Source: Bacteroidia bacterium (GTDB lineage Bacteria; Bacteroidota; Bacteroidia; J057). From it: a stretch of DNA of 64,000 nucleotides. A model generated the notes under the pieces. The model did not search any database, was not told where the DNA came from, and saw only the letters and a list, made by a program, of their open reading frames with translations. The number at the start of each line of letters is the position of its first letter. The first letter of the stretch is position 1. The DNA lies in NCBI GenBank assembly GCA_030430575.1, contig JAUIKF010000004.1:124001-188000 (forward strand). The letters are read 5' to 3'. The translations under genes and the position numbers were made by a program. This document shows, piece by piece, positions 1-23,091 of this stretch.

Positions 1-80
1 AAGGAGCAGCAGTCAAGAAAAGAGAAGATACCCATCGTATGGCAGAAGCCAATAAAGCGTTCTCTCACTTTAGGTTTTAA
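1..80 (+). CDS. rpsG: 30S ribosomal protein S7, 3' end (partial)
   Basis: The reading frame from base 3 to the TAA at 78-80 gives 25 residues containing KREDTHRMAEAN and ending SHFRF, the conserved C-terminus of S7. S7 nucleates assembly of the 30S head. The gene is cut by the window edge; its position 47 bases before fusA matches the standard str operon (rpsL-rpsG-fusA). Confidence 0.93.
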   Translation, partial: GAAVKKREDTHRMAEANKAFSHFRF

Positions 81-127
81 GAAAAATTAATATAAACAAA
101 GCAGCCTAAGCGAAAGGATTTTTTTCC

Positions 128-2236
128 ATGAAAAAAGTAGATCTAAAACATACGCGCAACCTCGGCATCATGGCTCACATTGATGCAGGGAAGACGACTA
201 CCACGGAGCGTATTCTCTATTATACTGGGATTACCCATAAAATTGGAGAAGTACACGACGGGGCAGCTACGATGGACTGGATGGAGCAAGAGCAAGAGCG
301 TGGTATCACCATTACCTCTGCGGCTACCACTGCCTATTGGCCATACAATGGCAAAGAACATCGTATCAATATCATTGACACGCCTGGTCACGTGGACTTC
401 ACAGTAGAAGTAGAGCGTTCACTTCGCGTGCTTGATGGGGCGGTAGCTGTTTTCTGTTCAGTAGGTGGTGTAGAGCCACAGTCTGAGACAGTTTGGCGCC
501 AAGCGGATAAGTACAAAGTGCCACGTATGGGCTTTGTCAATAAAATGGACCGTAGGGGCGCAGACTTTTTTGAAGTTGTAAAGCAGATCAAAGAGATGCT
601 TTCTGCAAACCCTGTCCCTATTCAGGTACCTATTGGTTCTGAAGAGAATTTCCGTGGCGTTGTTGACCTTTTGGACAAAAAAGCCATCATCTGGAATGAA
701 CATGACATGGGCATGACCTATGAAGAAGTTGAAATTCCAGCAGATCTAGTAGAAACTGTAGATAAGTATAGAAATGAACTGATTGAGGCAGTAGCGGAGT
801 ATGATGAAGTATTACTTGAAAAATACTTTGAAGACGAGGACTCAATCACACGTGAAGAGGTATTAGAGGCATTGCGCAAGGCGACTCTCGATATGGCTAT
901 CACACCTATGATGTGTGGCTCTGCCTTCAAAAACAAAGGAGTCCAGGCGATGCTTGATACGGTTTGTGCGTTGTTGCCTTCTCCACTGGATGTACCACCT
1001 GTAGAAGGGATCAATCCATATACTGAGAAAACCGAAATACGCTCAGCGTCAGAAGAAGAGCCATTTGCAGCGTTGGCATTTAAGATCATGACTGATCCTT
1101 ATGTTGGGCGTTTGGCATTCTTCCGTGTCTATTCTGGAAAAATTGATGGCGGATCTTATGTACTCAATAATCGTTCTGGGAAAAAAGAGCGCTTGAGCCG
1201 TATCCTCCAGATGCACTCAAATAAGCAAGAACAGATTCCAGCTATTGGAGCAGGTAATATCGCTGCAGGTATTGGATTTAAGAACATCCGTACTGGGGAT
1301 ACCCTCACGGATGTCGATCATCCACTCAATTTGGAAACCATTACCTTCCCTGATCCTGTGATCCAGAAGGCAGTAGAGCCAAAAACACAGTCGGACGAGG
1401 AGAAACTTACTACCGGCCTAGTGAAATTGGCGGAAGAAGATCCTACTTTCAAAGTCCATACAGATGAAGAGTCAGGTCAGACCATTATCTCTGGTATGGG
1501 CGAACTTCACCTGGAGATCATCATTGACCGCTTGAAGCGTGAGTTTAAAGTAGAAGTAAACGAAGGAGAACCTCAGGTATCTTATCGTGAAGCGATTACA
1601 GGAAATGTGACACACCGTGAAGTATACAAGAAGCAGACTGGTGGTCGTGGTAAATTCGCAGATGTCCAGATTGAATTCTCTCCACTCCCAGAAGATTCTG
1701 AAGTGGAATTCGAATTCGAGAATGCGATTAAAGGAGGAAATATTCCTAAAGAATTTATCCCTTCTGTAGAAAAAGGAATCAAAGGAGCCTTGTCTGAAGG
1801 AGTTCTTGCAGGTTATCCATTGAGTGGGGTCAAAGCAAGGCTATTTGACGGTAGCTTCCACGCAGTAGACTCAGATCAGCTTTCTTTTGAATTGGCAGGT
1901 CGTCTGGCATTTAAACATGCTGGAGCGAAAGCTAAGCCAGTTCTGAAAGAACCTATCATGGCAGTAGAAGTAGTTACCCCAGAGGAGTATATGGGAGCTA
2001 TTGTCGGGGACTTGAACCGTAGGAGAGGTCAAATCGAAGGAATGAATCCTCGCGGAAATGCCCAGGTAATCAAAGCAAAAGTGCCGCTTTCTGAACTCTT
2101 CGGCTATGTAACTGCGCTAAGGACTGTTTCTTCGGGAAGGGCTGTATCTACTATGCAGTTTGACTCTTACAAACAAGCAACCAATGCTATCCAAGAAGAA
2201 GTGGTAGCAAAAGTAAAAGGATTATCAAAAGTATAA
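128..2236 (+). CDS. fusA: translation elongation factor G
   Basis: This 702-residue protein is the normal length for EF-G, the GTPase that drives ribosomal translocation. The G1 motif AHIDAGKT lies at residues 16-23, followed by RGITI (G2), DTPGHVDF (G3), NKMD (G4) and GSAF (G5). The C-terminal part carries the usual domain IV/V signature around [16 protein letters not shown]. The ATG at 128 follows an A/T-rich stretch with no Shine-Dalgarno sequence. A strong hairpin terminator follows the stop, so fusA appears to close the str operon. Confidence 0.98.
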
Positions 2237-2243
2237 TATATAG

Positions 2244-2275
2244 TGAGTGAAGGTGATTTCCTTCACTCATTTTTT
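2244..2275 (+). terminator. Rho-independent terminator or attenuator between fusA and rpsJ
   Basis: A perfect 10-bp stem, TGAGTGAAGG (2244-2253) with CCTTCACTCA (2260-2269), encloses a six-base loop and is followed by six T residues. It lies eight bases after the fusA stop and 45 bases before rpsJ. It would separate the str operon from the S10 operon, or act as an attenuator if transcription continues through. Confidence 0.85.
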
Positions 2276-2319
2276 ATTGAATATTTGTCAGGTCGTTCTC
2301 TCAATCAAGACGCTAAACA

Positions 2320-2625
2320 ATGACGCAGAAAATCAGAATCAAACTGAAGTCTTACGACCACAATTTGGTAGATAAGTCGGCAGAAAAAATTGTTCGCACG
2401 GTCAAGGGTACAGGTGCTGTTGTCAGCGGTCCTATTCCATTGCCTACCGAACGTCAGGTGGTGACAGTCAACAGGTCTCCTCACGTCAATAAAAAATCTC
2501 GTGAGCAATTTGAAATTAGTTCTTATAAGCGCCTGATTGACATCTTCAGCTCTAGCTCCAAAACAGTAGATGTACTCATGAAGCTAGAACTTCCAAGTGG
2601 AGTCGACGTCGAGATCAAAGTGTAA
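2320..2625 (+). CDS. rpsJ: 30S ribosomal protein S10
   Basis: This is a 101-residue S10 ([11 protein letters not shown] at the N-terminus, [20 protein letters not shown] in the middle). S10 sits in the 30S head and is also the NusE partner in antitermination complexes. It opens the S10 operon. Because a terminator lies just upstream, a promoter is expected within 2276-2319; AATATTTG at 2281-2288 is one mismatch from the Bacteroidota -7 box, but I see no clear -33 partner. Confidence 0.98.
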
Positions 2626-5379: not shown

Positions 5380-5849
5380 TGATGGCAGAACAAGTTAAAA
5401 TGACCCGCAAAGAAAAAATTGAAGCAGGCATTCCTAAGCCTCCCAAGCGGAAAAAGACTTCCGCCGATGAGCTGAAAGCCTACAAAGAAGACACCTGTAA
5501 GGTGACGCTTCAAAATTACCGATCCTCAGCACGCAAGATGCGTTTGATTGTAGATCAAATTCGTGGAATGGAAGTATTTCAAGCACTGAGCGTGCTGAAG
5601 TTCACGCCAAAAGCGGCCGCACCTGCCGTGGAACGACTTCTTCGTTCTGCTGTGGCAAGCTGGGAAGAAAAGTTTGATGAGCGTGTAGACGTTGGGACTC
5701 ATTATGTCAGCGAAGTGTTTGTAGATAGCGCGCGTATGCTGAAACGATTGAGACCGGCACCACAAGGACGTGCTCATTTGATCCGAAAACGCTACTGCCA
5801 TGTTACTTTGGTGCTAGACGAAATAATAGAAGAAGAAGCTGAAGATTAA
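5379..5849 (+). CDS. rplV: 50S ribosomal protein L22, N-terminally extended
   Basis: The L22 core is clear ([34 protein letters not shown]). The protein is 156 residues against about 110 in E. coli, because of a Lys-rich N-terminal extension of about 35-40 residues ([20 protein letters not shown]). Two adjacent ATGs exist (5379 and 5382). AGGAGG at 5371-5376 is five bases from the second, a good Shine-Dalgarno spacing, so initiation at 5382 is possible. The extension resembles what is usual in this phylum. Confidence 0.96.
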
Positions 5850-5878: not shown

Positions 5879-6574
5879 TTGGGACAGAAAACACATCCAA
5901 TAGGCCTTAGACTGGGCATCATCAAAGGTTGGGAATCCAACTGGTTTGGTGGGAAAAACTTCGCCGACAAGCTAGTCGAAGACGATCAGATTCGTACATA
6001 TCTGGTTGCTCGTATCCCGAAAGGGGGCATCTCAAAAATTGTGATTGAGCGTACGCTGAAGAAAATCACAATTACCATTCACACCTCCCGACCAGGAATT
6101 GTGATTGGAAAGGGCGGTAAAGAAGTCGATAAGCTTCGTGAAGAGATCAAAAAGATCACAAACAAAGATGTGCAGATCAACATCTTCGAAATAAAGCGTC
6201 CAGAACTCGATGCGACACTTGTGGGGCAGCAAATCGCTCAGCAATTAGAAGCGCGTATTTCTTTTCGTAGAGCGATGAAAATGTCTTTGGCAGCGACGAT
6301 GCGTGCTGGTGCTCAAGGATGCAAAATCATGTGCTCAGGACGACTTGGTGGAGCGGAAATGGCTCGTACAGAGCAATACAAAGATGGACGTATTCCACTT
6401 CAGACGCTGAGAGCAGACATAGATTATGCACTGGTTGAAGCCAAAACGATCTACGGAATCATCGGGGTAAAGGTCTGGATTTTCAAAAACGAGATTTTCG
6501 GAAAAGTTGACCTCTCACCAAATCCAAAAAGTGATCGCAAAGGTGGCGGTGGCGGCCGTAAGCGTAGGAGATAG
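5879..6574 (+). CDS. rpsC: 30S ribosomal protein S3 (TTG start)
   Basis: This 231-residue S3 begins at TTG 5879: the conserved [14 protein letters not shown] starts exactly there and no in-frame ATG precedes it. The KH RNA-binding loop [15 protein letters not shown] is intact, as is the C-terminal mRNA-entry region ([23 protein letters not shown], key residues R, G, E). The tail is Gly/Arg-rich. The non-ATG start may tune expression. Confidence 0.96.
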
Positions 6575-6604
6575 AAATAGATTGGTTAATTAAGCTATAA
6601 ACAA

Positions 6605-7030
6605 ATGTTACAGCCAAAAAAGACTAAATATAGAAGGGTTCAGAAAGGTAAGGGCAAGATGGAAGGAAACGCCCATCGTGGGACCTCCGTAGCCTTTGGC
6701 TCTTATGGGTTGAAAGCACTTGAGCGTGCCTGGATCAATTCTCGCCAAATAGAAGCAGCTCGTATTACGATATCGCGTGCAATGAAGCGTGAAGGTAAGT
6801 TTTGGATCCGCATTTTCCCAGACAAGCCTATTACCAAGAAGCCTGCTGAAGTACGAATGGGTAAAGGTAAAGGCTCGCCAGAATATTGGGCTGCAGTTGT
6901 ATTGCCTGGCCGAATTATGTTCGAACTAGATGGCGTTTCTGAAGAAGTAGCAAAAGAAGCACTTCGTTTGGCTTCTAATAAACTTCCTATTAAGACCAAA
7001 TTTGTTTACCGTAGAGATTTGCAATCATAA
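6605..7030 (+). CDS. rplP: 50S ribosomal protein L16
   Basis: A 141-residue L16 ([52 protein letters not shown]). L16 organises the A-site side of the 50S subunit. Thirty bases separate it from rpsC. Confidence 0.98.
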
Positions 7031-7051
7031 CCGCATTATCCCTTTCCTGCT

Positions 7052-7258
7052 ATGAAAGCTAGCGAAATAAGAGACTTAACCACAGAAGAGATTGTTGCTC
7101 GTCTCAAGGATGAGACAGAGAAACTCCTACGCTTGAAACTTAATCATGCTGTATCGGCGGTAGAACGTCCTTCTGATATCCTGAATACCCGCAGAAATGT
7201 TGCTCGTCTCAAGACAATCTTGACACAGCGATCTGCAGAGGCACAAACAACGAATTAA
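7052..7258 (+). CDS. rpmC: 50S ribosomal protein L29
   Basis: A 68-residue, two-helix L29 (MKASEIRDLTTEEI; NTRRNVARLKTILTQR). It lies at the tunnel exit beside L23. The length and its position between rplP and rpsQ are standard. Confidence 0.96.
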   Translation: MKASEIRDLTTEEIVARLKDETEKLLRLKLNHAVSAVERPSDILNTRRNVARLKTILTQRSAEAQTTN

Positions 7259-7270
7259 TTTTAGCGTGTC

Positions 7271-7540
7271 ATGAGCGAAAATACTCCTAAAAGGAATGAG
7301 CGTAAGACCCGTATTGGGGTCGTAAAGTCCAACAACATGGATAGATCCATCGTGGTTGTGACAGAACGGAAAGTGAATCACCCAGTTTACGGAAAAGTCC
7401 AGAAAAAGTCTTCGACCTTTATGGCCCATGATGAGAACAACGAATGCGGCGTAGGTGACACCGTCAAGATCATGGAAACACGTCCACTCAGTAAGCGTAA
7501 GCGCTGGCGCCTAGTGGAAATTATTGAAAAGGCTAAATAA
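7271..7540 (+). CDS. rpsQ: 30S ribosomal protein S17
   Basis: An 89-residue S17 with OB-fold motifs [34 protein letters not shown] and [18 protein letters not shown]. It is a primary 16S rRNA-binding protein. It follows rpmC by 12 bases. Confidence 0.98.
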
Positions 7541-7558
7541 TAAGAACCCAGTAATACC

Positions 7559-7927
7559 ATGATACAGCAAGAATCCAGACTAAAAGTCGCTGACAATAGC
7601 GGAGCAAAAGAAATCCTGTGTATTCGCGTTTTGGGCGGTACCAGGAAACGCTATGCCAGAATCGGTGACAGCATTGTATGTAGCGTGAAATCTGCTGACC
7701 CTAGGGCTAATGTCAAAAAAGGGGATGTAGTCAAAGCAGTAGTGGTAAGAACCAGGAAAGAAATACGAAGGAAAGATGGCTCATACATCAGGTTTGATGA
7801 TAATGCAGCTGTGCTACTTGCCACAGACGGTGGCCCCAGAGGTACGCGTATTTTTGGCCCAGTGGCACGTGAGTTACGTGACAAAGGCTACATGAAAATT
7901 GTATCACTTGCACCAGAAGTGCTTTAA
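7559..7927 (+). CDS. rplN: 50S ribosomal protein L14
   Basis: A 122-residue L14 of exact family length ([41 protein letters not shown]). It forms part of the intersubunit surface and opens the spc part of the cluster. Confidence 0.98.
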
Positions 7928-7939
7928 TTAAAACTAGCG

Positions 7940-8254
7940 ATGAAGAAATTGCATATTAAAAAAGGAGACACTGTCCGCGTGTTGTGTGGAAAAGACAGAG
8001 GTGCTACAGGGCGTGTGTTGCTTGTATTTCCTGACAAGTATCGTGCGATTGTTGAAGGGGTAAACATGGTGCGTAAACACGTAAAGCCCAACCAGCAAAG
8101 TCCTCAAGGTGGAATCGTAGAGCAAGAAGCCTCAATCCACCTATCAAATTTGATGTTGATGGAGGGTAATACTCCTACTCGGACAGGAAGAATGAAAAAT
8201 GAAGAGGGAAAAGGATGGGTTCGATATTCAAAAAATACAGGAAATCCAGTTTAA
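7940..8254 (+). CDS. rplX: 50S ribosomal protein L24
   Basis: A 104-residue L24 with an N-terminal KOW motif (KKGDTVRVLCGKDRGATGRV). L24 is an assembly initiator at the tunnel exit. The gap to rplN is 12 bases. Confidence 0.97.
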   Translation: MKKLHIKKGDTVRVLCGKDRGATGRVLLVFPDKYRAIVEGVNMVRKHVKPNQQSPQGGIVEQEASIHLSNLMLMEGNTPTRTGRMKNEEGKGWVRYSKNTGNPV

Positions 8255-8276
8255 GCGATTAATGTGATAAATTGTC

Positions 8277-8843
8277 ATGGCTAACGAAAACAGACTATTC
8301 AAGCAATATAAGGAAAAGGTAGTCCCTGCTTTAATAAAGGAATTCAATTATCATTCCGTTATGCAGGTCCCTAAACTACAGAAGATAGTCCTCAACCGTG
8401 GGGTTGGAGATGCAGTAGGAGACAAAAAACTCATTGATAATGCTGTGCAAGAGATTGGATTGATCTCAGGACAAAAAGCGATTGTGATCAATGCGAAAAA
8501 AAGTGTCTCAAACTTTAAACTTCGTGAAGGAATGCCGATCGGAGTGAAAGTGACCCTACGTTCTAATCACATGTATGAGTTTCTCGACCGCTTTATTAAT
8601 GTAGCACTTCCACGTGTGCGTGACTTTAAGGGGATTCCTCCAAAAGGATTTGATGGAAGAGGCAACTTCAGTATTGGGGTAAAGGAGCAAATTATCTTTC
8701 CTGAGATAGATGTAGATAAAATCAGTAAGATATCTGGACTTGATGTGACATTCGTCACCTCAGCGAAGACAGATGAAGAAGCCCTTGCTCTTTTTAGGGA
8801 GTTTGGGATGCCTTTCCAAGGACTTAAAAAAGTAAACGCATAA
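8277..8843 (+). CDS. rplE: 50S ribosomal protein L5
   Basis: A 188-residue L5 ([54 protein letters not shown]). It binds 5S rRNA and contacts the P-site tRNA. The stop is followed by ACT and then the rpsN ATG. Confidence 0.98.
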
Positions 8844-8846
8844 ACT

Positions 8847-9116
8847 ATGGCTAGGAAGTCGGCATTAGCGAGACAAAAAAAGCGAGAAAAACTCGTGGCG
8901 CAATACGCGGCGAAGCGTCAGGCGTTGAAGGAGGCTGGAGATTACCAAGCGCTTGCCTTATTACCCAAGAACTCATCTCCTGTAAGGTTGCATAATCGCT
9001 GCAAGCTTACTGGAAGACCTAGAGGTTATATCAGGAGATTTGGAATCTCTCGAATTAAATTCAGAGAGCTTGCGCTACAAGGAAAAATACCCGGAGTAAA
9101 GAAATCTAGTTGGTAA
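8847..9116 (+). CDS. rpsN: 30S ribosomal protein S14, zinc-free type
   Basis: An 89-residue S14 ([36 protein letters not shown]). It is the long form without the CxxC...CxxC zinc ribbon of the short S14; only one Cys is present. Gaps of three bases (ACT) lie on both sides, to rplE and rpsH. Confidence 0.97.
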
Positions 9117-9119
9117 ACT

Positions 9120-9518
9120 ATGTATACAGATCCAATAGCAGATTTTCTGACACGTATCAGAAATGCACAACAAGCAAAGCACAAGATTGTAGAAATCCCC
9201 GCTTCTAAGCTGAAGCAGGAGATTACCAAAGTGCTACATGACCAAGGCTACATTCGCCGCTATAAATTTGTAGATGCAAAGCCACAAGGGGTGATAAAAA
9301 TTGCCCTGAAATACAATAAGGAAAATAAGCGGCCAGCAATCTCAAAATTGCTTCGTTATAGTAAACCTGGTCTTCGGAAATATGCAAAGGCTTCCGAAAT
9401 GCCAAATGTTCTTAATGGGCTTGGTATTGCAATTGTCTCAACTCCACAAGGGGTAATGACAGGCAAAGAAGCCAAGGCGCAGAATGTAGGTGGCGAAGTA
9501 TTGTGTTTCATTCATTAG
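9120..9518 (+). CDS. rpsH: 30S ribosomal protein S8
   Basis: A 132-residue S8 (TDPIADFLTRIRNAQQAKH; GLGIAIVSTPQGVMTGKEA; GGEVLCFIH at the end). In E. coli S8 represses the spc operon by binding an mRNA site that mimics 16S rRNA. I did not find an equivalent site here by eye. Confidence 0.98.
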   Translation: MYTDPIADFLTRIRNAQQAKHKIVEIPASKLKQEITKVLHDQGYIRRYKFVDAKPQGVIKIALKYNKENKRPAISKLLRYSKPGLRKYAKASEMPNVLNGLGIAIVSTPQGVMTGKEAKAQNVGGEVLCFIH

Positions 9519-9531
9519 AGATATTAGAAAA

Positions 9532-10086
9532 ATGTCCAGAATAGGAAATAACCCAATCTCGATTCCCTCAGGAGTCACTATTAGTGTCGATAAAAGCAAT
9601 GTGGTCAAAGTAAAAGGGCCCAAAGGCGAATTGACGCAGGCAGTAAACTCTGATCTGGAAATTAAGATTGAAGACGGAACCTTGACCGTAGCCCGACCTA
9701 CGGACCAAAAACGCCATAGAGCAATGCATGGCCTCTATCGTACCTTGGTCAACAATATGGTCGAAGGAGTTACGAATGGGTATGAGAAAAAAATGCAGGT
9801 GGTAGGTGTAGGTTACAGAGCTGAAGCGCAGGGCAATAAGCTGACGCTGGCTTTAGGATTCTCCCACCCTGTTGTTATGTTTCTCCCTCAGGAGGTACAA
9901 GTAGAGACTGAGTCTGCGCGTGGTAAAGACCCTATCATTACCCTCAAAAGTATTGATAAGCAGCTTATCGGGCAGATCGCAGCAAAAATAAGAGGCCTCC
10001 GTCCACCAGAGCCCTATAAAGGCAAAGGAATTCGCTTTGTAGGCGAGGAGATTAGGAGAAAAGCTGGTAAAGCCGCTGGCAAGTAG
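9532..10086 (+). CDS. rplF: 50S ribosomal protein L6
   Basis: A 184-residue L6 starting at ATG 9532 ([15 protein letters not shown]), the family N-terminus. An upstream in-frame start at 9490 would add 14 residues from inside rpsH and is rejected. The C-terminal rRNA-binding motif [11 protein letters not shown] is intact. Confidence 0.97.
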
Positions 10087-10112
10087 ACGTTAACCCAATA
10101 ATCTTGAATATA

Positions 10113-10475
10113 ATGGGAAAGCCATCTAATAAAGTACTGAGCAGATCTCGGATTAGAAGAAGAATCCGGACCCAAATCAAGGGGTCCATGGAGAGACCGC
10201 GACTGTCAATTTTCAGAAGTAATCGTCAGATTTATGCCCAAATCATCGATGATGATCAAGGCATTACCTTGGCAAGTTGTTCTTCTCGGTTAAAAGACGT
10301 AAATTCGCAGCCGCTTTCCAAAACAGAGCAAAGCAAAATGGTCGGTCAAAAACTGGCTGAATTGGCAAAAACTAAAGGCATTGAAAAGGTAGTATTTGAC
10401 CGTGGTGGATATAAATATCATGGAAGAGTGAAAGCCTTAGCAGAAGGTGCTCGTGAAGGAGGGCTAATTTTCTAA
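10113..10475 (+). CDS. rplR: 50S ribosomal protein L18
   Basis: A 120-residue L18 ([56 protein letters not shown]). It binds 5S rRNA with L5. ATG 10113 is preferred; a TTG three codons upstream (10104) is an alternative. Confidence 0.96.
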
Positions 10476-10481
10476 ATTATC

Positions 10482-11009
10482 ATGAAGCAATCATTTCTCA
10501 GACCCGAGAATCGAGTCAAAAGCAGCGACACGGAACTACAAGAAAAGGTAGTGAAAATCAAACGCGTCGCAAAGGTTGTAAAAGGCGGCCGTAGGTTTAG
10601 CTTCAGTGCAATCGTAGTCGTAGGAGATGGCAATGGGACTGTGGGATACGGTCTTGGAAAGGCCAATGAGGTAACTGATGCAATTTCGAAAGGCGTTGAT
10701 GACGCAAAGAAGCATTTGGTTAAAGTACCTATTCGCAAGGGAACCATTCCTCACCCTACAGTTACCAAATTTGGCGCTGCAAAGATTATGCTTAAACCAG
10801 CTGCTCCTGGTACAGGTGTCTTGGCCGGAGGTGCTATGCGATCTGTATTGGAAAGTGCCGGAGTAAAAGATGTAATTGGGAAAGTATTAGGCTCATCTAA
10901 TCCTCATAACGTTGTCAAAGCTACCATTAAGGCTTTGGTTGAAATGCGAGATGCAAAGGCAGTTGCAGTTCAAAGAGGAATTGACCTTAAGAAAGTATAT
11001 CACGGTTAA
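10482..11009 (+). CDS. rpsE: 30S ribosomal protein S5
   Basis: A 175-residue S5 with the dsRBD-like block [20 protein letters not shown] and the C-terminal fold around [18 protein letters not shown]5 takes part in decoding fidelity and mRNA helicase activity. It lies six bases after rplR. Confidence 0.98.
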
Positions 11010-11020
11010 GAAATAATATC

Positions 11021-11206
11021 ATGTTGCCCAAGGTAAAAATCACCCAGGTAAGGAGTACGATCAATCGTCCCAAAGATCAAAAAGCAACCATTGCTGCGCT
11101 AGGTCTAGGTAAGATGAATCGTACCGTTGAAAAAGAAGTTAATCCCCAAATATTGGGCATGATTAAAAAGGTAAGCCATTTGGTTAAACTCGAAGAAGTA
11201 CAATAA
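11021..11206 (+). CDS. rpmD: 50S ribosomal protein L30
   Basis: A 61-residue L30 ([36 protein letters not shown]). One base separates its stop from the rplO start. Confidence 0.96.
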
Positions 11207-11207
11207 G

Positions 11208-11657
11208 ATGAAACTTCATACACTTAAGCCAGCAAAAGGTGCGACCAAGAACCGCAAAAGAGTAGGACGTGGTCAAGGATCTGGAAGAGGGGGCACCTCT
11301 ACACGTGGTCACAAAGGCCAGCAGTCTAGAAGTGGATACTCTCAAAGACCATGGTTTGAAGGTGGTCAGATGCCTTTGCAAAGAAGGGTCCCCAAATTTG
11401 GATTTAAAAACCCATTTAGGGTAGAATATAAAGCACTCAACCTTGACGCCATTCAGACCTTGATTGACGCCACAGGGGCTACAGAAATTAACCATGACTT
11501 CTTAGTCGAAAGAGGCATTATCTCTAATAACCAAAAACTTGTAAAAGTATTGGGAAGAGGAGAACTCACCTCAAAGGTGACCATCAAGCTGAATAAGTTC
11601 AGCCAAGCCGCAAAAGCTGCGATTGAAGCCGCAGGTAGTGAGGCGATAGAAATTTAA
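11208..11657 (+). CDS. rplO: 50S ribosomal protein L15
   Basis: A 149-residue L15 with the Gly/Arg-rich N-terminus (KRVGRGQGSGRGGTSTRGHK) and the C-terminal globular domain. The protein is a late 50S assembly component. Confidence 0.98.
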   Translation: MKLHTLKPAKGATKNRKRVGRGQGSGRGGTSTRGHKGQQSRSGYSQRPWFEGGQMPLQRRVPKFGFKNPFRVEYKALNLDAIQTLIDATGATEINHDFLVERGIISNNQKLVKVLGRGELTSKVTIKLNKFSQAAKAAIEAAGSEAIEI

Positions 11658-11690
11658 GATACGCAACTTGGACTCGTGAATCGATCATAG

Positions 11691-13046
11691 ATGAAATCTC
11701 TTATTCAGACAATTCAAAATATCCTCAGAATCCCTGAGCTCAGAGATCGGATTTTCTACACGATAATGCTCCTAGCCGTTTTCCGGTTGGGAACATTTGT
11801 TACATTACCTGGTATAGATTCAATTGCACTAGAACAAGCATTTAAATCAGGTGGTGGAGCAGGTGGGGGACTTCTTGATTTCTTTAACACCTTTCTTGGA
11901 GGAGCATTTGCCCGTGGATCCATCCTGGCACTGGGGATCATGCCGTATATCTCGGCATCAATTGTAGTCCAATTATTGGGTGCAGTAGTACCTGCATTCC
12001 AAAAACTCAGAAGAGAGGGGGATAGTGGGCAGAAAAAGATGAATCAAATAACACGTTATTTGACCATCGCAATTACATTAGGCCAATCCGTAAGTTACCT
12101 TTTTTACCTCAATAGCCAATACCCCAATGCGGTAGCAAGTCAAGGGACTGCAGAAGAATCTTTCTTCTGGATCACAAGTTTGATTATCCTTACTGCTGGT
12201 ACAATGTTCCTCGTATGGCTGGGTGAGCGAATCACAGATAATGGAATTGGAAATGGAGTTTCCTTGTTGATCATGATTGGAATCATCTCTGGATTCCCTG
12301 CTGCATTGATCAATGAGTTCCGTTCTAACTTACCAATGGTATTCTTTATTGAAATACTGGCATTGGGAGTTGTGACCATGGCAGTGGTTGCACTTACACA
12401 AGCTACTCGAAAGATACCGGTGAACTATGCCCGTCAGATGATGGGCAACAGAATAGGGCAGATGGGCCGCGGCACCGCAGCTCGCCAGTATATCCCTCTG
12501 AAAGTCAACTCGGCTGGGGTAATGCCTATTATCTTTGCACAAGCGATTATGTTTTTGCCTGCGGCATTGGTTGGGTTCTTGCCTGCTGAAAATGCGCAGA
12601 CATTAGCTGCCTCTTTGACCAACTGGACTGGGCTTGGCTATAACATTATCTTTTTTATTCTGATTATAGTCTTTACATATTTCTATACTGCGATCACCGT
12701 AAATCCTAATGAAATTGCCGACCAATTGAAGCGCAATGGTGGATTTATTCCTGGTGTAAAACCTGGTAAGAAAACAGCAGATTACATTGATAACATTCTT
12801 TCGAAGATCACATTGCCTGGATCTATTTTCCTTGCAATTGTTTCGGTTTTTCCTGCAGTTGCCTCCAGAATGGGCGTGACAGGAAGTTTTGCTCAATTCT
12901 TTGGAGGGACGACGTTGTTGATCATGATTGGTGTGACATTAGATACTCTGCAACAGATTGAAAGTTACTTATTGATGCGTCACTATGATGGTCTGATGAA
13001 ATCTGGTCGGGTAAAAGGGCGTCAAAGAGGAACAGTAGGTGCCTAG
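11691..13046 (+). CDS. secY: preprotein translocase subunit SecY
   Basis: A 451-residue SecY with about ten hydrophobic segments. The family signatures GIMPYISASIVVQLL (TM2) and the C-terminal cytoplasmic segment ESYLLMRHYDGLMKSGRVKG are present. SecY forms the protein-conducting channel in the inner membrane, through which T9SS cargo elsewhere in the window must first pass. The gene is followed by ACT and then the map ATG. Confidence 0.98.
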   Translation: MKSLIQTIQNILRIPELRDRIFYTIMLLAVFRLGTFVTLPGIDSIALEQAFKSGGGAGGGLLDFFNTFLGGAFARGSILALGIMPYISASIVVQLLGAVVPAFQKLRREGDSGQKKMNQITRYLTIAITLGQSVSYLFYLNSQYPNAVASQGTAEESFFWITSLIILTAGTMFLVWLGERITDNGIGNGVSLLIMIGIISGFPAALINEFRSNLPMVFFIEILALGVVTMAVVALTQATRKIPVNYARQMMGNRIGQMGRGTAARQYIPLKVNSAGVMPIIFAQAIMFLPAALVGFLPAENAQTLAASLTNWTGLGYNIIFFILIIVFTYFYTAITVNPNEIADQLKRNGGFIPGVKPGKKTADYIDNILSKITLPGSIFLAIVSVFPAVASRMGVTGSFAQFFGGTTLLIMIGVTLDTLQQIESYLLMRHYDGLMKSGRVKGRQRGTVGA

Positions 13047-17554: not shown

Positions 17555-18697
17555 TTACTCGTTACCAGTAGATTCAAAATCATAGGATAGGGTAACACGC
17601 AAAGTATTTTGTAATGGGTGGTTTTGCTCAAGTGGAGCGAGATATGAAACGTGGACGCCAAATACATTGAAGCGAGCTCCTGCGCCGAGGGTGATGAACT
17701 TGCGGTTTCCTTTTTGTGGATCTTCATAAAAGAACCCAATACGTGCCGCAAACACTTCTCTATACCAATATTCAAGCCCTACAGAAGTATTAATCTCTGA
17801 GATTTCTTCTCCAAATCCACCTTCTGCGTCCCCAAAACTTCCAAAAATACCCGAAAGCAATGGCTCGTCAGATCGGCCACCTTCGGAAGGGACAAGTAGT
17901 TTGTTGAAGTCATTGGTGAAAGTTACAGAGTTGTATTCGTCCACCTGGAATTCAAATGCATACCCCAGCCTTAAACTAATTGGGATAAAGTCCTTCTCAG
18001 CAGAAGCAGAAGTATATGATACTTTGGGGCCGATATTAGAAATATTGAGGCCGGCCTTGAAGTTTACGGGAAGATCCTGTCCACTACTTTTGATGGTGAA
18101 AGGCTTGGTATAATAAAAAGCCAAATCCCCAGCTACAGAATTCACTGGCTTCAGATCGGGACTGATATTACCACTAGAAACCAAGCGACTGTAGAAATAC
18201 CTCAAAGCTACAGCAGCACTAAGGTTTTCAGTAACTTTCAATGAATAAGCGACATCTAGTGCAAATTCATTGGGTTTGTCCTGACCAATAGAGTTGGCGG
18301 AGATGTCAGTGAACTCAATCGTACCTAAAGAGAAGTACCTCAAAGAAGCACCTACGGCACCATTTGGGCCTGTCTTATAATAGCCAGATAGATAGGCTAG
18401 ATTGATGTCAGGAATTCCTAAAGAACGAAGCCAGGGGGAGTAAGAGAGCGCAAATCCCATCTGTTGGTCTTCGAAAAACGCCAAGGCGGCGGGGTTCCAG
18501 TGCATGGCATTGGCGTCATCAGTGATGGCCACACCAGTTTCCCCCATACCTCCTGCACGTGAGTCAGGACCTACGGATAAGAAAGGAGCTGCGGTTGTGA
18601 TTACTTTGGTTCCGTCTCTTCCCGTTTGGGCATAAGACGATACGGAATATGCCAATAGTGCACTTGTGCAAATGGCAAAAAAGAGTGCTTTCCTCAT
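17555..18697 (-). CDS. porV: T9SS outer-membrane protein PorV (LptO) homologue
   Basis: This 380-residue protein has a signal peptide (to about residue 23, SSYAQ) and the family N-terminus VITTAAPFLSVGPDSRAGGMGETGVA, whose key features are FLxxxPDARAxGMG-like residues and the following NPAALAF. The rest alternates in beta strands as expected for a FadL-like barrel. PorV shuttles T9SS cargo from the translocon to the PorU sortase at the outer membrane. Three proteins in this window carry T9SS C-terminal domains, so the link is direct. It is convergent with rplQ across a shared terminator. PorU, SprA and the other machine genes are not in the window. Confidence 0.9.
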   Translation of the reverse strand: MRKALFFAICTSALLAYSVSSYAQTGRDGTKVITTAAPFLSVGPDSRAGGMGETGVAITDDANAMHWNPAALAFFEDQQMGFALSYSPWLRSLGIPDINLAYLSGYYKTGPNGAVGASLRYFSLGTIEFTDISANSIGQDKPNEFALDVAYSLKVTENLSAAVALRYFYSRLVSSGNISPDLKPVNSVAGDLAFYYTKPFTIKSSGQDLPVNFKAGLNISNIGPKVSYTSASAEKDFIPISLRLGYAFEFQVDEYNSVTFTNDFNKLLVPSEGGRSDEPLLSGIFGSFGDAEGGFGEEISEINTSVGLEYWYREVFAARIGFFYEDPQKGNRKFITLGAGARFNVFGVHVSYLAPLEQNHPLQNTLRVTLSYDFESTGNE

Positions 18698-18985: not shown

Positions 18986-19291
18986 TTAGAAGGGGAGTTC
19001 ACTTTCATGCATGACCAAAAGGATGAGGACTTTGGAACGAAACACCTGGAAAATGACGCGATACCCTCCATAAAGCGAGCCTATTCGATAGTCACCAGAT
19101 CCTTTCCTCATCCCTTCGCAGATGGGAAACTGAGCAGGAAAGTGTTTGATTTCATCAAAGACGACATCTAAAAAATCATCCATGATAGCCTCTGCCTCAG
19201 ATTTTGAGGACATGCGTATTTCCGTATAAATTTCGGTAATTTGGGCCTGTGCGAGTTTGGTGAGGACAATTACCCTTGCTTCCGTTGCCAT
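18986..19291 (-). CDS. ParE/RelE-superfamily toxin
   Basis: This 101-residue protein has the type II toxin fold pattern: an N-terminal helix pair (AQITEIYTEIRMSSKSEAEA), then the strands IKHFPAQFPICEGM, GDYRIGSLYGGYRVIFQV and KVLILLVMHESEL. The pattern Y-R-I...Y-R-V-I-F and a terminal H match ParE/RelE members, which act on gyrase or on ribosome-bound mRNA; which one applies here cannot be told. It overlaps its upstream partner by 22 bases, so the two are co-translated. Confidence 0.8.
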   Translation of the reverse strand: MATEARVIVLTKLAQAQITEIYTEIRMSSKSEAEAIMDDFLDVVFDEIKHFPAQFPICEGMRKGSGDYRIGSLYGGYRVIFQVFRSKVLILLVMHESELPF

Positions 19292-19542
19292 TCAGGATTT
19301 TTTTGAAAAAATGCAGATTCAGATACTTCGCCACTTTGTTTTGCTTCGCGGACGAGTTTACGGAAGTCTTTTAAAGGCATTTGAGCTTTGGCACTCGTGG
19401 GAGTTGCCTGCTGCTCGCTTCGCGCATGAATGCTGATCAACCTTGAAATATCGGCAGCTAAAGCCGGGTGATCCATAACCGCGAGTCGAATTTCTTTGAG
19501 TTGCCCTGAATGATCTCTTATAAATTCTATTCCCTTCATCAT
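19270..19542 (-). CDS. putative antitoxin of the ParE/RelE pair
   Basis: This 90-residue protein precedes and overlaps the toxin by 22 bases, the usual antitoxin-first order. I do not recognise a standard DNA-binding N-terminus. The C-terminal half (KDFRKLVREAKQSGEVSESA) looks like a toxin-wrapping segment. Two start codons are adjacent (19542 and 19539). The function is inferred mainly from context. The pair diverges from the MORN lipoprotein gene 35 bases away. Confidence 0.65.
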   Translation of the reverse strand: MMKGIEFIRDHSGQLKEIRLAVMDHPALAADISRLISIHARSEQQATPTSAKAQMPLKDFRKLVREAKQSGEVSESAFFQKNPEWQRKQG

Positions 19543-20161: not shown

Positions 20162-20192
20162 TTTGAAATGTTTGGGAAATTTTGTAACTTTA
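20162..20192 (+). promoter_or_regulatory. promoter of the cysteine-rich cargo operon
   Basis: TTTG (20162-20165), a 19-base spacer and TAACTTTA (20185-20192) match the Bacteroidota TTTG-N19-TAnnTTTG promoter with one mismatch at the last base. It would drive the three genes from 20296 to 23091 with a leader of about 100 bases. Confidence 0.45.
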
Positions 20193-20295: not shown

Positions 20296-21462
20296 ATGAT
20301 ACAATTTTACTCCTACAGTAAAAAACCTGTTATCATACATCTCTTCTCATTGGTTTTCCTAGTTCTTCTAGGAACAACCCCTATTTCTTTATTAGGTCAG
20401 TGTGGTATTACGATTCCCAATGGGGAGCGCTGCGAAGCTCCTGGTGGGGATAATTGTGAATTCTATATTTGCGTGAGTGGTAACTGTGTTCCCTCTGGTC
20501 TTTTATATCCTCCAGGCACCAAATGTGGATGCTTTGGAGATGAATGTTATGAAGACTTTTGTGATGCTACAGGCAATTGTGCGTGTGGCTTTTTTGCTGC
20601 ATCACCCGCTGAAAAATGTGCTTCTGAGCAAAATATTTGTAACGGTGTAGAGAATTGTGATGGTATAAGCGGTGTCAACTGTAGTGGAGCGATATCTTAT
20701 CCCGCGGCAGTCTGTGATGATGGGGTGACCTGTACAGAAGATTGTAACCCTGTTGACGGATGTGTGCAATATCCTATCCATGACCGCTGTGATGATGGAG
20801 ATGTATGTACCAATGATGTCTGTGATACCACAGCTACTTCTGGTTGTATAAACGCATGCACAGGTGCGCCTGGGTGTGCAGGGAGCCCTAATTGTACGTC
20901 ATTTCCGATTGAATTAATGGACTTACGGGCTCGTGTCTACGGCATGGATCTCGTCATAGAGTGGATGACAGCGACTGAGACCAATAATTATGGATTTGAG
21001 GTAGAGTTGAGTACAGATGGTCTTGTGTTTGAAAAACAAGGGTTTGTGCGAGGTGCTGGAACAACCCGAGAAGCCCAATTTTATGAATTTAAAACGCAAA
21101 TTCTCAGATATGGCATAAATTATGTTCGTTTAAAACAGTTGGATGTTGATGGGGGGCATACATATACCCAAACATTGCAGGTGAAAACAGCGCTTTCTAC
21201 CCTTGTAAACCTCGACGCTGCATTTCCAAATCCCGTCAATGCCCAAACAACGATAAGGTTTTCGGCATCGCGAAATCTGCCCGTAGCCTTGAAACTTTTT
21301 GATCAGAATGGAAAAGAAGTGAAGGTGCTTTTTGAGGGGTTGGTGAAAGAAGGAAATATTTACACGATTGGACTGGATGTCCGAGATCTCAGTCCAGGTA
21401 TGTATCTCTACCAACTCTCAGGAAAGTTCGAAAGTATTACAAAGAAACTCACTGTATACTAG
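20296..21462 (+). CDS. cysteine-rich secreted protein with T9SS sorting domain (copy 1)
   Basis: This 388-residue protein starts at ATG 20296 (a GTG at 20248 would add 16 residues). It has a signal peptide ending near SLLGQ and a region of about 170 residues with 26 cysteines containing two CxDGxxCTxD-type motifs (CDDGVTCTEDC, CDDGDVCTNDVC). A fibronectin-like module follows (EWMTATETNNYGFEVELSTD to YVRLKQLDVDGG), typical of T9SS cargo, and then a type A sorting domain (FPNPVNAQTTI to SITKKLTVY). It is predicted to be exported and anchored at, or released from, the cell surface. The binding target is unknown. It is a tandem paralogue of the next gene. Confidence 0.88.
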   Translation: MIQFYSYSKKPVIIHLFSLVFLVLLGTTPISLLGQCGITIPNGERCEAPGGDNCEFYICVSGNCVPSGLLYPPGTKCGCFGDECYEDFCDATGNCACGFFAASPAEKCASEQNICNGVENCDGISGVNCSGAISYPAAVCDDGVTCTEDCNPVDGCVQYPIHDRCDDGDVCTNDVCDTTATSGCINACTGAPGCAGSPNCTSFPIELMDLRARVYGMDLVIEWMTATETNNYGFEVELSTDGLVFEKQGFVRGAGTTREAQFYEFKTQILRYGINYVRLKQLDVDGGHTYTQTLQVKTALSTLVNLDAAFPNPVNAQTTIRFSASRNLPVALKLFDQNGKEVKVLFEGLVKEGNIYTIGLDVRDLSPGMYLYQLSGKFESITKKLTVY

Positions 21463-21524
21463 CCTCCTATCACTAGCATTTTCCAATACACTGATCAAAG
21501 AACGCCCCAAACGAACAAAAGCCT

Positions 21525-22703
21525 ATGGCACCAGTGTATTTGATCTTTTGCCGCTTCATTGATGATTATATCCATCACACGTTGCTCTTAATTGCTTTGT
21601 TGGCAGTGCCAGCAATAAGCAATGGACAGTGCGGTATCACTATTCCTACTGGAGCACACTGCTCCCCCCCTGACACAATCGGGCTTCAAAATTGTTACTT
21701 TTTTGTATGTGACTCTTCAGGAGGATGCATTAATAGTGGCCTGCCAGTACCCCGAGGCACAAAGTGTGGATTGTTTGGAGATGAGTGTTTCGATGATTTT
21801 TGTGATGGTCAAGGGGCTTGCCTTTTTAGTTTCAATATAGCTCCTGCTAATCAAAAATGTGCATCTGATAACAATGTCTGTGATGGACTCTTGCATTGTG
21901 ATGGCCTTAGTGGACTTGGCTGTGCAGGTGATACGACCTATCCTGCTGCTGCTTGTGACGATGGGGTTTTCTGTACAGAAGATTGTAATCCGATTGACAC
22001 TTGTGTGACTTATCCCTTTCATGTGCGATGCGATGACTCAGACATATGTACAGTAGACATATGTGACACCACTGGAACACCTGGATGTGTCAATAATTGT
22101 ATTAGTTCTGCTTCTTGTGCCACAGGCTCTCCTTGTTTTTCATTCCCAGTCGAATTGCTGAATTTTTGGGCAAATGTTGAAGGAAAACATTTATACCTGG
22201 AATGGATGACTGCAGTAGAGGTAAATAATGAAGGATTTGAAATACAATTAAGCACAGACGCGGTTTCTTTCCAGTCTGTAGGATTTCTGGCTGGAGCTGG
22301 AACAGTCTCTGAAGCACAATTTTATCAATATTCGACCACGATATTGGCCTATGGGGTCAACTATATTCGCCTCAAACAAATCGATATTTCAGGCGATTTT
22401 ATTTATACAAAAGCGATTTCAGTTTTTGCAAAAGCGCCTAGGTATGTAGAGCTTTCGCAAGCATATCCTAATCCGACCAATAATCAAGCGACTATCAATT
22501 TTTCTGTGTATCAAAAGATGCATGTGGGCCTTGAATTATTTGATCAAAATGGGAAAATGGTTATCACCCTTTTCGAGGGAAAAGTCGAAGCTGACCAGCT
22601 CTATTCTGTGCGTGTCAATGTCGAAGATCTTACACCTGGGATGTATTTCTATCGCTTAGTAGGAGATATTCAAACGACTACCAAAAAACTTACTGTTTAT
22701 TGA
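21525..22703 (+). CDS. cysteine-rich secreted protein with T9SS sorting domain (copy 2)
   Basis: This 392-residue paralogue of the preceding gene has the same order: signal peptide (to AISNGQ), Cys-rich region, fibronectin-like module (EWMTAVEVNNEGFEIQLSTD) and type A sorting domain (YPNPTNNQATI to TTTKKLTVY). It has 24 cysteines. The two missing relative to copy 1 are in KCGLFGDEC (copy 1 KCGCFGDEC) and ACLFSF (copy 1 NCACGF), as if one disulphide had been lost or gained as a pair. The gap to copy 1 is 62 bases. The family is not one I can name. Confidence 0.87.
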   Translation: MAPVYLIFCRFIDDYIHHTLLLIALLAVPAISNGQCGITIPTGAHCSPPDTIGLQNCYFFVCDSSGGCINSGLPVPRGTKCGLFGDECFDDFCDGQGACLFSFNIAPANQKCASDNNVCDGLLHCDGLSGLGCAGDTTYPAAACDDGVFCTEDCNPIDTCVTYPFHVRCDDSDICTVDICDTTGTPGCVNNCISSASCATGSPCFSFPVELLNFWANVEGKHLYLEWMTAVEVNNEGFEIQLSTDAVSFQSVGFLAGAGTVSEAQFYQYSTTILAYGVNYIRLKQIDISGDFIYTKAISVFAKAPRYVELSQAYPNPTNNQATINFSVYQKMHVGLELFDQNGKMVITLFEGKVEADQLYSVRVNVEDLTPGMYFYRLVGDIQTTTKKLTVY

Positions 22704-22704
22704 T

Positions 22705-23091
22705 ATGAAAAAGCTATTCCTTATCATCTTTTTGTGTTTCGGGGCAATGTGTATTGCATTGGGCCAAACCAGTACATCAGACGAGTATGCCATAGACTAC
22801 AGCTCTCCAGAATATAAGGCTAGCCTGTTTACCAATAACCTTATCAAAGAATTAGGGCTTACAGGTGAACAAAGAGAAAAAGTCTATTGTGCTCGCCTGT
22901 CTTTCCTTCAAAAGAAGGGCGCGCTTATGGAAGCCCACAAAGCTAAAGGAGGGGATTCTATGGGGGCACGGATGCAATTGTATGAAATGCGGAAAACCTG
23001 TGATCGTACGATTCGAGAGGCACTTACCCCTACCCAAATAGAACGATATAATGCTTACTTGGCGGCCCAAGAGGCACTTTATGGACATTGA
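22705..23091 (+). CDS. Spy/CpxP-like small periplasmic protein
   Basis: This 128-residue protein has a signal peptide (to CIALGQ) and a helical mature part with two LTxxQ motifs (LTGEQREK, LTPTQIER), the hallmark of Spy/CpxP-like periplasmic chaperones. Its ATG follows the stop of cargo copy 2 by one base, so it is co-transcribed. A role in keeping the Cys-rich cargo soluble is inference from this pairing. Its stop lies one base from the stop of the convergent epimerase gene. Confidence 0.75.
   Translation: MKKLFLIIFLCFGAMCIALGQTSTSDEYAIDYSSPEYKASLFTNNLIKELGLTGEQREKVYCARLSFLQKKGALMEAHKAKGGDSMGARMQLYEMRKTCDRTIREALTPTQIERYNAYLAAQEALYGH

Follow-up and report, generated by a model that had tools for sequence, protein, structure and literature searches.

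In the window, i.e., the whole stretch of 64,000 nucleotides that was analysed, three genes on the same strand (here called A, B and C) raise the question of whether a pair of cysteine-rich proteins destined for the type IX secretion system (T9SS) is encoded together with a periplasmic partner of its own. The initial annotation had proposed that the first two are paralogous T9SS cargo proteins that share a promoter with a dedicated Spy-like chaperone. Little is known about how T9SS cargo is kept ready for export in the periplasm, and A-B-C offers a simple case in which to test it; in the literature searched, we found no cargo-specific chaperone for the T9SS, and nothing on the T9SS with cysteine-rich cargo or on LTXXQ proteins in Bacteroidetes. 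We computed the gene structure, the domains, the secretion signals, the conservation of the gene order, the predicted fold of C and the uniqueness of its cysteine pair.

Layout of the locus and a putative promoter

The three genes follow one another closely (Table 1), with the start codon of C only 1 nt past the stop codon of B. The putative promoter upstream of A has a counterpart in the only congener compared (genome G001, contig JAUIGE010000003.1, region L022), where the same gap holds a match with the same spacing, also with one mismatch (L022 positions 5812-5842), and a scan of the interval from A to C gave no match as good as the one upstream of A. These matches support a single transcript for A-B-C, but only moderately, since shuffling either gap yields a comparable site in about 6% of cases. 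The shared promoter that had been suggested for the three genes thus agrees with a site that recurs in both genomes and has no equal between A and C, which falls short of proof. A scan for sigma-70 promoters and terminators was uninformative, no Rfam family was found at 17-26 kb and the window contains no tRNA.

Table 1. Features of the locus (positions are counted from the first nucleotide of the window).
Feature	Position	Strand	Description
PorV, T9SS type A carrier	17555-18697	-	equivalog NF033710, 428 bits
ParE-type toxin (PF05016) and likely antitoxin	18986-19542	-	between porV and the MORN protein; kept in the congener
Putative Bacteroidota-type promoter	20162-20192	+	TTTG-N19-TAACTTTA, 5′ of A, one mismatch
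Gene A	20296-21462	+	388-aa T9SS type A cargo
Cysteine domain of A	20401-20895	+	residues 36-200; 26 Cys (all of those in A); net charge about -21
Gene B	21525-22703	+	392-aa paralogue of A
Cysteine domain of B	21630-22136	+	residues 36-204; 24 of the 25 Cys in B
Gene C	22705-23091	+	128-aa secreted LTxxQ/Spy-like protein

A and B are paralogues predicted to be T9SS cargo

A and B are 53% identical over 379 residues and have the same architecture: behind a hydrophobic leader come the cysteine domain, a beta-rich linker domain and, at the C terminus, the sorting domain. In both proteins, this last domain (residues 310-387 in A and 314-391 in B) scores above the curated cut-offs of both models, with 39.2 bits for A and 47.6 bits for B against PF18962 (cut-off 27) and 38.8 and 40.2 bits, respectively, against TIGR04183 (cut-off 23). 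The signal peptide of A is predicted to be cleaved before Q35, and a hydrophobic leader followed by QCG can be read by eye in A, B and both of their orthologues; Q35-C36 agrees with the Q-rule described for signal peptidase I in Bacteroidetes (PMC10653852). With type A sorting domains above the curated cut-offs and a leader in place, the assignment of A and B as T9SS cargo was upheld, and both proteins would be exported and located at the cell surface. The host has the T9SS, as judged from PorV; the genome also matches A at about 70 places, which hardly ever involve the cysteine domain. A and B therefore resemble other type A cargo (PF18962/TIGR04183) in their Q-site signal peptide, beta-rich linker domain and high-scoring sorting domain, but differ from it in their passenger, a domain with 24-26 cysteines that is confined to the genus in the genomes searched. 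Taken together with the gene layout, A-B-C is best read as one operon that makes and exports two surface proteins.

Within the genome, A and B match at 54% over 80 aa in their sorting domains (positions 21225-21459 and 22466-22700), compared to 43-44% with the orthologues. The cysteine domains behave in the opposite way and are closer to the orthologues than to each other. Gene conversion at the 3′ ends of A and B is possible.

The cysteine domain consists largely of tandem four-cysteine units

The cysteine-dense paralogues were confirmed in their coordinates and counts (26 and 24 cysteines over a stretch of about 165-170 residues), the 25th cysteine of B being C9, inside the signal peptide. 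This density is not a chance effect, because the next most cysteine-rich frame in the window has only 12 cysteines per 170 aa. Across A, B and the two orthologues, 24 cysteine columns are invariant, and 20 of these form five tandem four-cysteine units with the spacing C-x(5-10)-C-x(3-5)-C-x(4-9)-C, with one further cysteine before the units and three after them. The cysteine domains are strongly acidic (net charge -15 to -21) and are the best-kept part of the proteins, with 74% and 64% identity between orthologues compared to 45-48% for the remainder; dS between orthologues is saturated, and dN/dS was uninformative beyond indicating a strong constraint.

Units 4 and 5 (CDDGVTCTEDCNPVDGC and CDDGDVCTNDVCDTTATSGC) resemble the four-cysteine repeat of Dictyostelium extracellular matrix proteins (Dicty_CTDC, PF00526), with which A and B have in common CDDGxxCTxDxCDxxxGC-type units in tandem, but the units of A and B vary more in their spacing. 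A was not filed in this family, given its score of 10-14 bits (10.3-14.4; best match E = 0.0079), which lies under the gathering cut-off of 27. A 45-residue profile of units 4-5 gave weak matches only, one of them to a real adhesin with CTDC repeats. In a genome of another Bacteroidota family (G654), a large secreted protein (L082, positions 1-2589, minus strand) carries PF00526 repeats that score 79 bits, together with SprB repeats.

Searches through 395 genomes from the phylum, through the 22 from the order and through plasmids did not find the cysteine domain outside the genus. The contig search outside the genus likewise returned only matches to other parts of the proteins, i.e., one from residue 165 on that contains no cysteines (L023) and one to the sorting domain only (L024). 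No solved structure matched the cysteine domain, and AlphaFold2 run with the four sequences gave a pLDDT below 50 for residues 24-203 and, hence, no usable model or disulphide map of this domain. About twelve disulphides most likely lock the cysteine domain in its final state.

C is a secreted protein with a Spy-like predicted fold

The third gene had been described as encoding an LTxxQ periplasmic protein, and C does carry two such motifs (LTGEQ at residues 52-56 and LTPTQ at 107-111; LTGDQ and LNPTQ in the orthologue) behind a signal peptide with a Q-rule site. Its scores lie under the gathering thresholds of the related Pfam families (14.7 bits against DUF4890, cut-off 29.7, and, for the orthologue, 12.9 bits against LTXXQ, cut-off 24.3), and we therefore call C Spy-like rather than filing it in one of these families. 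Among 29 relatives of C, 18 match DUF4890 at E < 0.01 and 11 match LTXXQ. When a profile of these relatives was compared with the sequences in the PDB, Spy was the only protein found at E < 1, with a best match (3oeo, E = 0.0026) that is weak but exclusive.

AlphaFold2 predicts four helices for C with a mean pLDDT of 87. Foldseek alone gave no significant match, and a structural second look placed CnrX, Spy, CpxP and NccX among the best rows, with Z scores of up to 7.5 for Spy, 7.8 for CnrX and 9.3 for STV, in a range (Z 6-9) that helical bundles can reach by chance. On the strength of the profile and the model, C most likely has a Spy-like fold. It shares with the Spy/CpxP/CnrX superfamily (PF07813, PF16231, PF13801) the secretion signal, a mature length of about 100 residues, the LTxxQ motifs and the four-helix prediction, and differs from it in its scores below the Pfam cut-offs, its two conserved cysteines, its position behind T9SS cargo and the absence of an adjoining stress regulator. 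A chaperone role is not settled by such a fold, because the superfamily also holds CnrX, a metal sensor, and CpxP, a stress adaptor. Of the dedicated Spy-like chaperone put forward in the initial annotation, the Spy-like part is supported by the superfamily profile and the four-helix prediction, and its place in the operon by the gene order kept in the congener, whereas the function is not fixed by the fold.

Charge attraction to its clients is known for Spy (PMC8144458). Mature C is near neutral (+1), as opposed to the strongly acidic cysteine domain of A and B, so an attraction of this type is not evident for C overall.

The cassette is conserved in a congener

In the two genomes of the genus that were compared, the same genes occur in the same order and orientation, namely porV, the ParE-type pair, a MORN-repeat lipoprotein, A-B-C, the methylmalonyl-CoA epimerase gene and psd. 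The three-gene order is thus kept in the congener, with a B-C gap of 1 and 2 nt in the two species, and so are the genes that flank it. The porV gene keeps its place in both genomes, at a distance of three genes from the cassette; in the congener, this place is the end of a ribosomal protein block. Beyond the genus, the 20 further genomes of the order showed no cysteine domain of the A/B type, no close orthologue of C was found in the remaining genomes searched of the family, and the family members inspected have no A-B-C-type genes at the epimerase-psd site. Judged from these sequences, the cassette appears to be restricted to the genus in the genomes searched. Since only one congener was compared, the co-conservation of A, B and C counts as one evolutionary event.

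A cysteine pair in C and the redox setting of the host

C has two cysteines, C62 and C99, which the model places on neighbouring helices and which are both kept in the congener, as is H78. Of the 96 distinct LTxxQ domains in the survey, 89 are free of cysteine and five contain a single one, at other positions; two cysteines occur in C and its orthologue alone. The sole surveyed LTxxQ protein that is encoded with a 24-cysteine cargo is therefore also the sole one with a cysteine pair, and this within one lineage. Nothing else in the data hints as strongly at a thiol-based link between C and its cargo.

Neither DsbB (PF02600) nor VKOR (PF07884) was detected in the host genome (G000, 99% complete), in searches whose controls worked. 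Because of this result, it cannot be taken for granted that the cargo folds oxidatively in the periplasm: either the cysteines of A and B would be oxidised by other means, or late, or some of them would be metal-bound. In Flavobacterium, conserved twin cysteines link parts of the T9SS and of the gliding machinery by disulphides, and T9SS parts work via disulphide exchange (PMC12635249), which implies that thiol exchange in the periplasm would not be unusual here.

The lack of a detectable DsbB or VKOR, the conservation of C62, C99 and H78, and structural-comparison scores that are as high for CnrX as for Spy would all fit another explanation, in which C responds to metal or redox state much as CnrX or ZraP does, the cysteines of A and B bind metal, and the operon serves as a metal or thiol stress response. 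We consider this quite unlikely, however, as no sigma factor or two-component gene adjoins C, none of the metal-binding families searched matched, and 24 cysteines, an even number with a repeat spacing, fit disulphide-knotted extracellular repeats.

Proposed role of C in the export of A and B

C is best read as a Spy-fold periplasmic partner that is adapted to cysteine-rich cargo. In what we propose, where we infer the disulphide state, the binding of C to A and B, its chaperone or thiol activity, the dependence on the T9SS and the surface location, A and B would reach the periplasm via Sec and lose their signal peptides at the Q-rule site. C, translated right behind B, would most likely bind A and B in transit through the periplasm and keep them from aggregation or wrong cross-linking, and C62 and C99 may hold or exchange thiols with them. 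Their C-terminal sorting domains would finally take A and B across the outer membrane via the T9SS. Taken as a whole, the proposal of one A-B-C operon in which C binds and guards A and B in the periplasm before T9SS export has, in our estimate, a little less than an even chance of being correct. A further-reaching version is improbable: a Spy-fold protein that gained a cysteine pair would have become a thiol-active chaperone, making or guarding disulphides in a bacterium without DsbB or VKOR, and LTxxQ proteins encoded behind T9SS cargo would be cargo-specific escorts.

Type IX export already offers a precedent for the use of a periplasmic chaperone scaffold: the Skp homologue SkpA is part of the extended T9SS translocon (PMC10994853). 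SkpA differs from C in that it has the Skp rather than the Spy scaffold, belongs to the translocon and has an operon to itself instead of sharing one with a single cargo pair.

LTxxQ genes behind T9SS cargo in other lineages

LTxxQ genes occur in 138 of the 295 genomes of the class, and most of them are not beside T9SS cargo. Being so widespread, and with C the only clear LTxxQ protein in its own genome and thus able to do a general job, such proteins could be taken as ordinary envelope-stress proteins that serve the whole periplasm, in which case C would stand behind B by chance. This explanation is a serious one but on balance unlikely, since the gap of 1-2 nt between B and C is kept in two species, C shares its gene order with a genus-restricted cargo pair, and its cysteine pair is found in none of the other LTxxQ relatives surveyed (96 including C and its orthologue).

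The association of LTxxQ genes with T9SS cargo was surveyed in 100 regions, in which genes were called and sorting domains marked with an iterated profile. An LTxxQ gene lies directly behind a same-strand T9SS cargo gene in 8 of 96 cases, compared to 15 of 911 for other genes (Fisher P of about 0.0008), and when the genus with A-B-C is left out, in 6 of 94 cases (one-sided P of about 0.01), an enrichment that comes from few independent lineages. Three further lineages show this arrangement, with an M14 carboxypeptidase as the cargo in one family and PKD-domain cargo in two others. In the former (family f97), the M14 carboxypeptidase with its sorting domain is followed by a same-strand LTxxQ gene in five genomes (L109, L111, L112, L123 and L131). 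In another genus of the family to which the window's own genome belongs (G003), a check by hand showed a cargo of at least 1913 codons with PKD domains and a sorting domain, followed by an LTxxQ gene (L116, positions 5938-12303, minus strand). Upstream (5′) of the M14 cargo gene of f97, there is a peptidase-like gene in at least three genomes.

None of the cargo proteins ahead of the LTxxQ genes in these lineages is cysteine-rich like A and B, and the pairing of LTxxQ genes with cargo is therefore wider than disulphides. This limits the cysteine link between cargo and C, for which the C62/C99 pair, absent from 94 other LTxxQ proteins, still speaks. It also makes C conceivable as an accessory of the T9SS that acts in export, as SkpA does, and delivers cargo whatever its cysteine content, with the position of the cassette near porV pointing the same way. 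This explanation is nevertheless very unlikely in our view: most LTxxQ genes are not beside cargo, most of the T9SS cargo genes of the genome are not beside an LTxxQ gene, and the porV neighbourhood amounts to shared synteny in two genomes only. A separation of the Spy-like gene from cargo genes in relatives, which the initial annotation had named as evidence against its proposal, is seen in the wider LTxxQ family but not for the genus-level orthologue of C.

With C read as the partner of A and B, the recurrence of LTxxQ genes behind cargo points to further candidate pairs. By eye, LTxxQ genes are also seen beside folding-type genes, with a cyclophilin-like gene upstream in one region (L043) and a thioredoxin-like gene downstream in another (L050).
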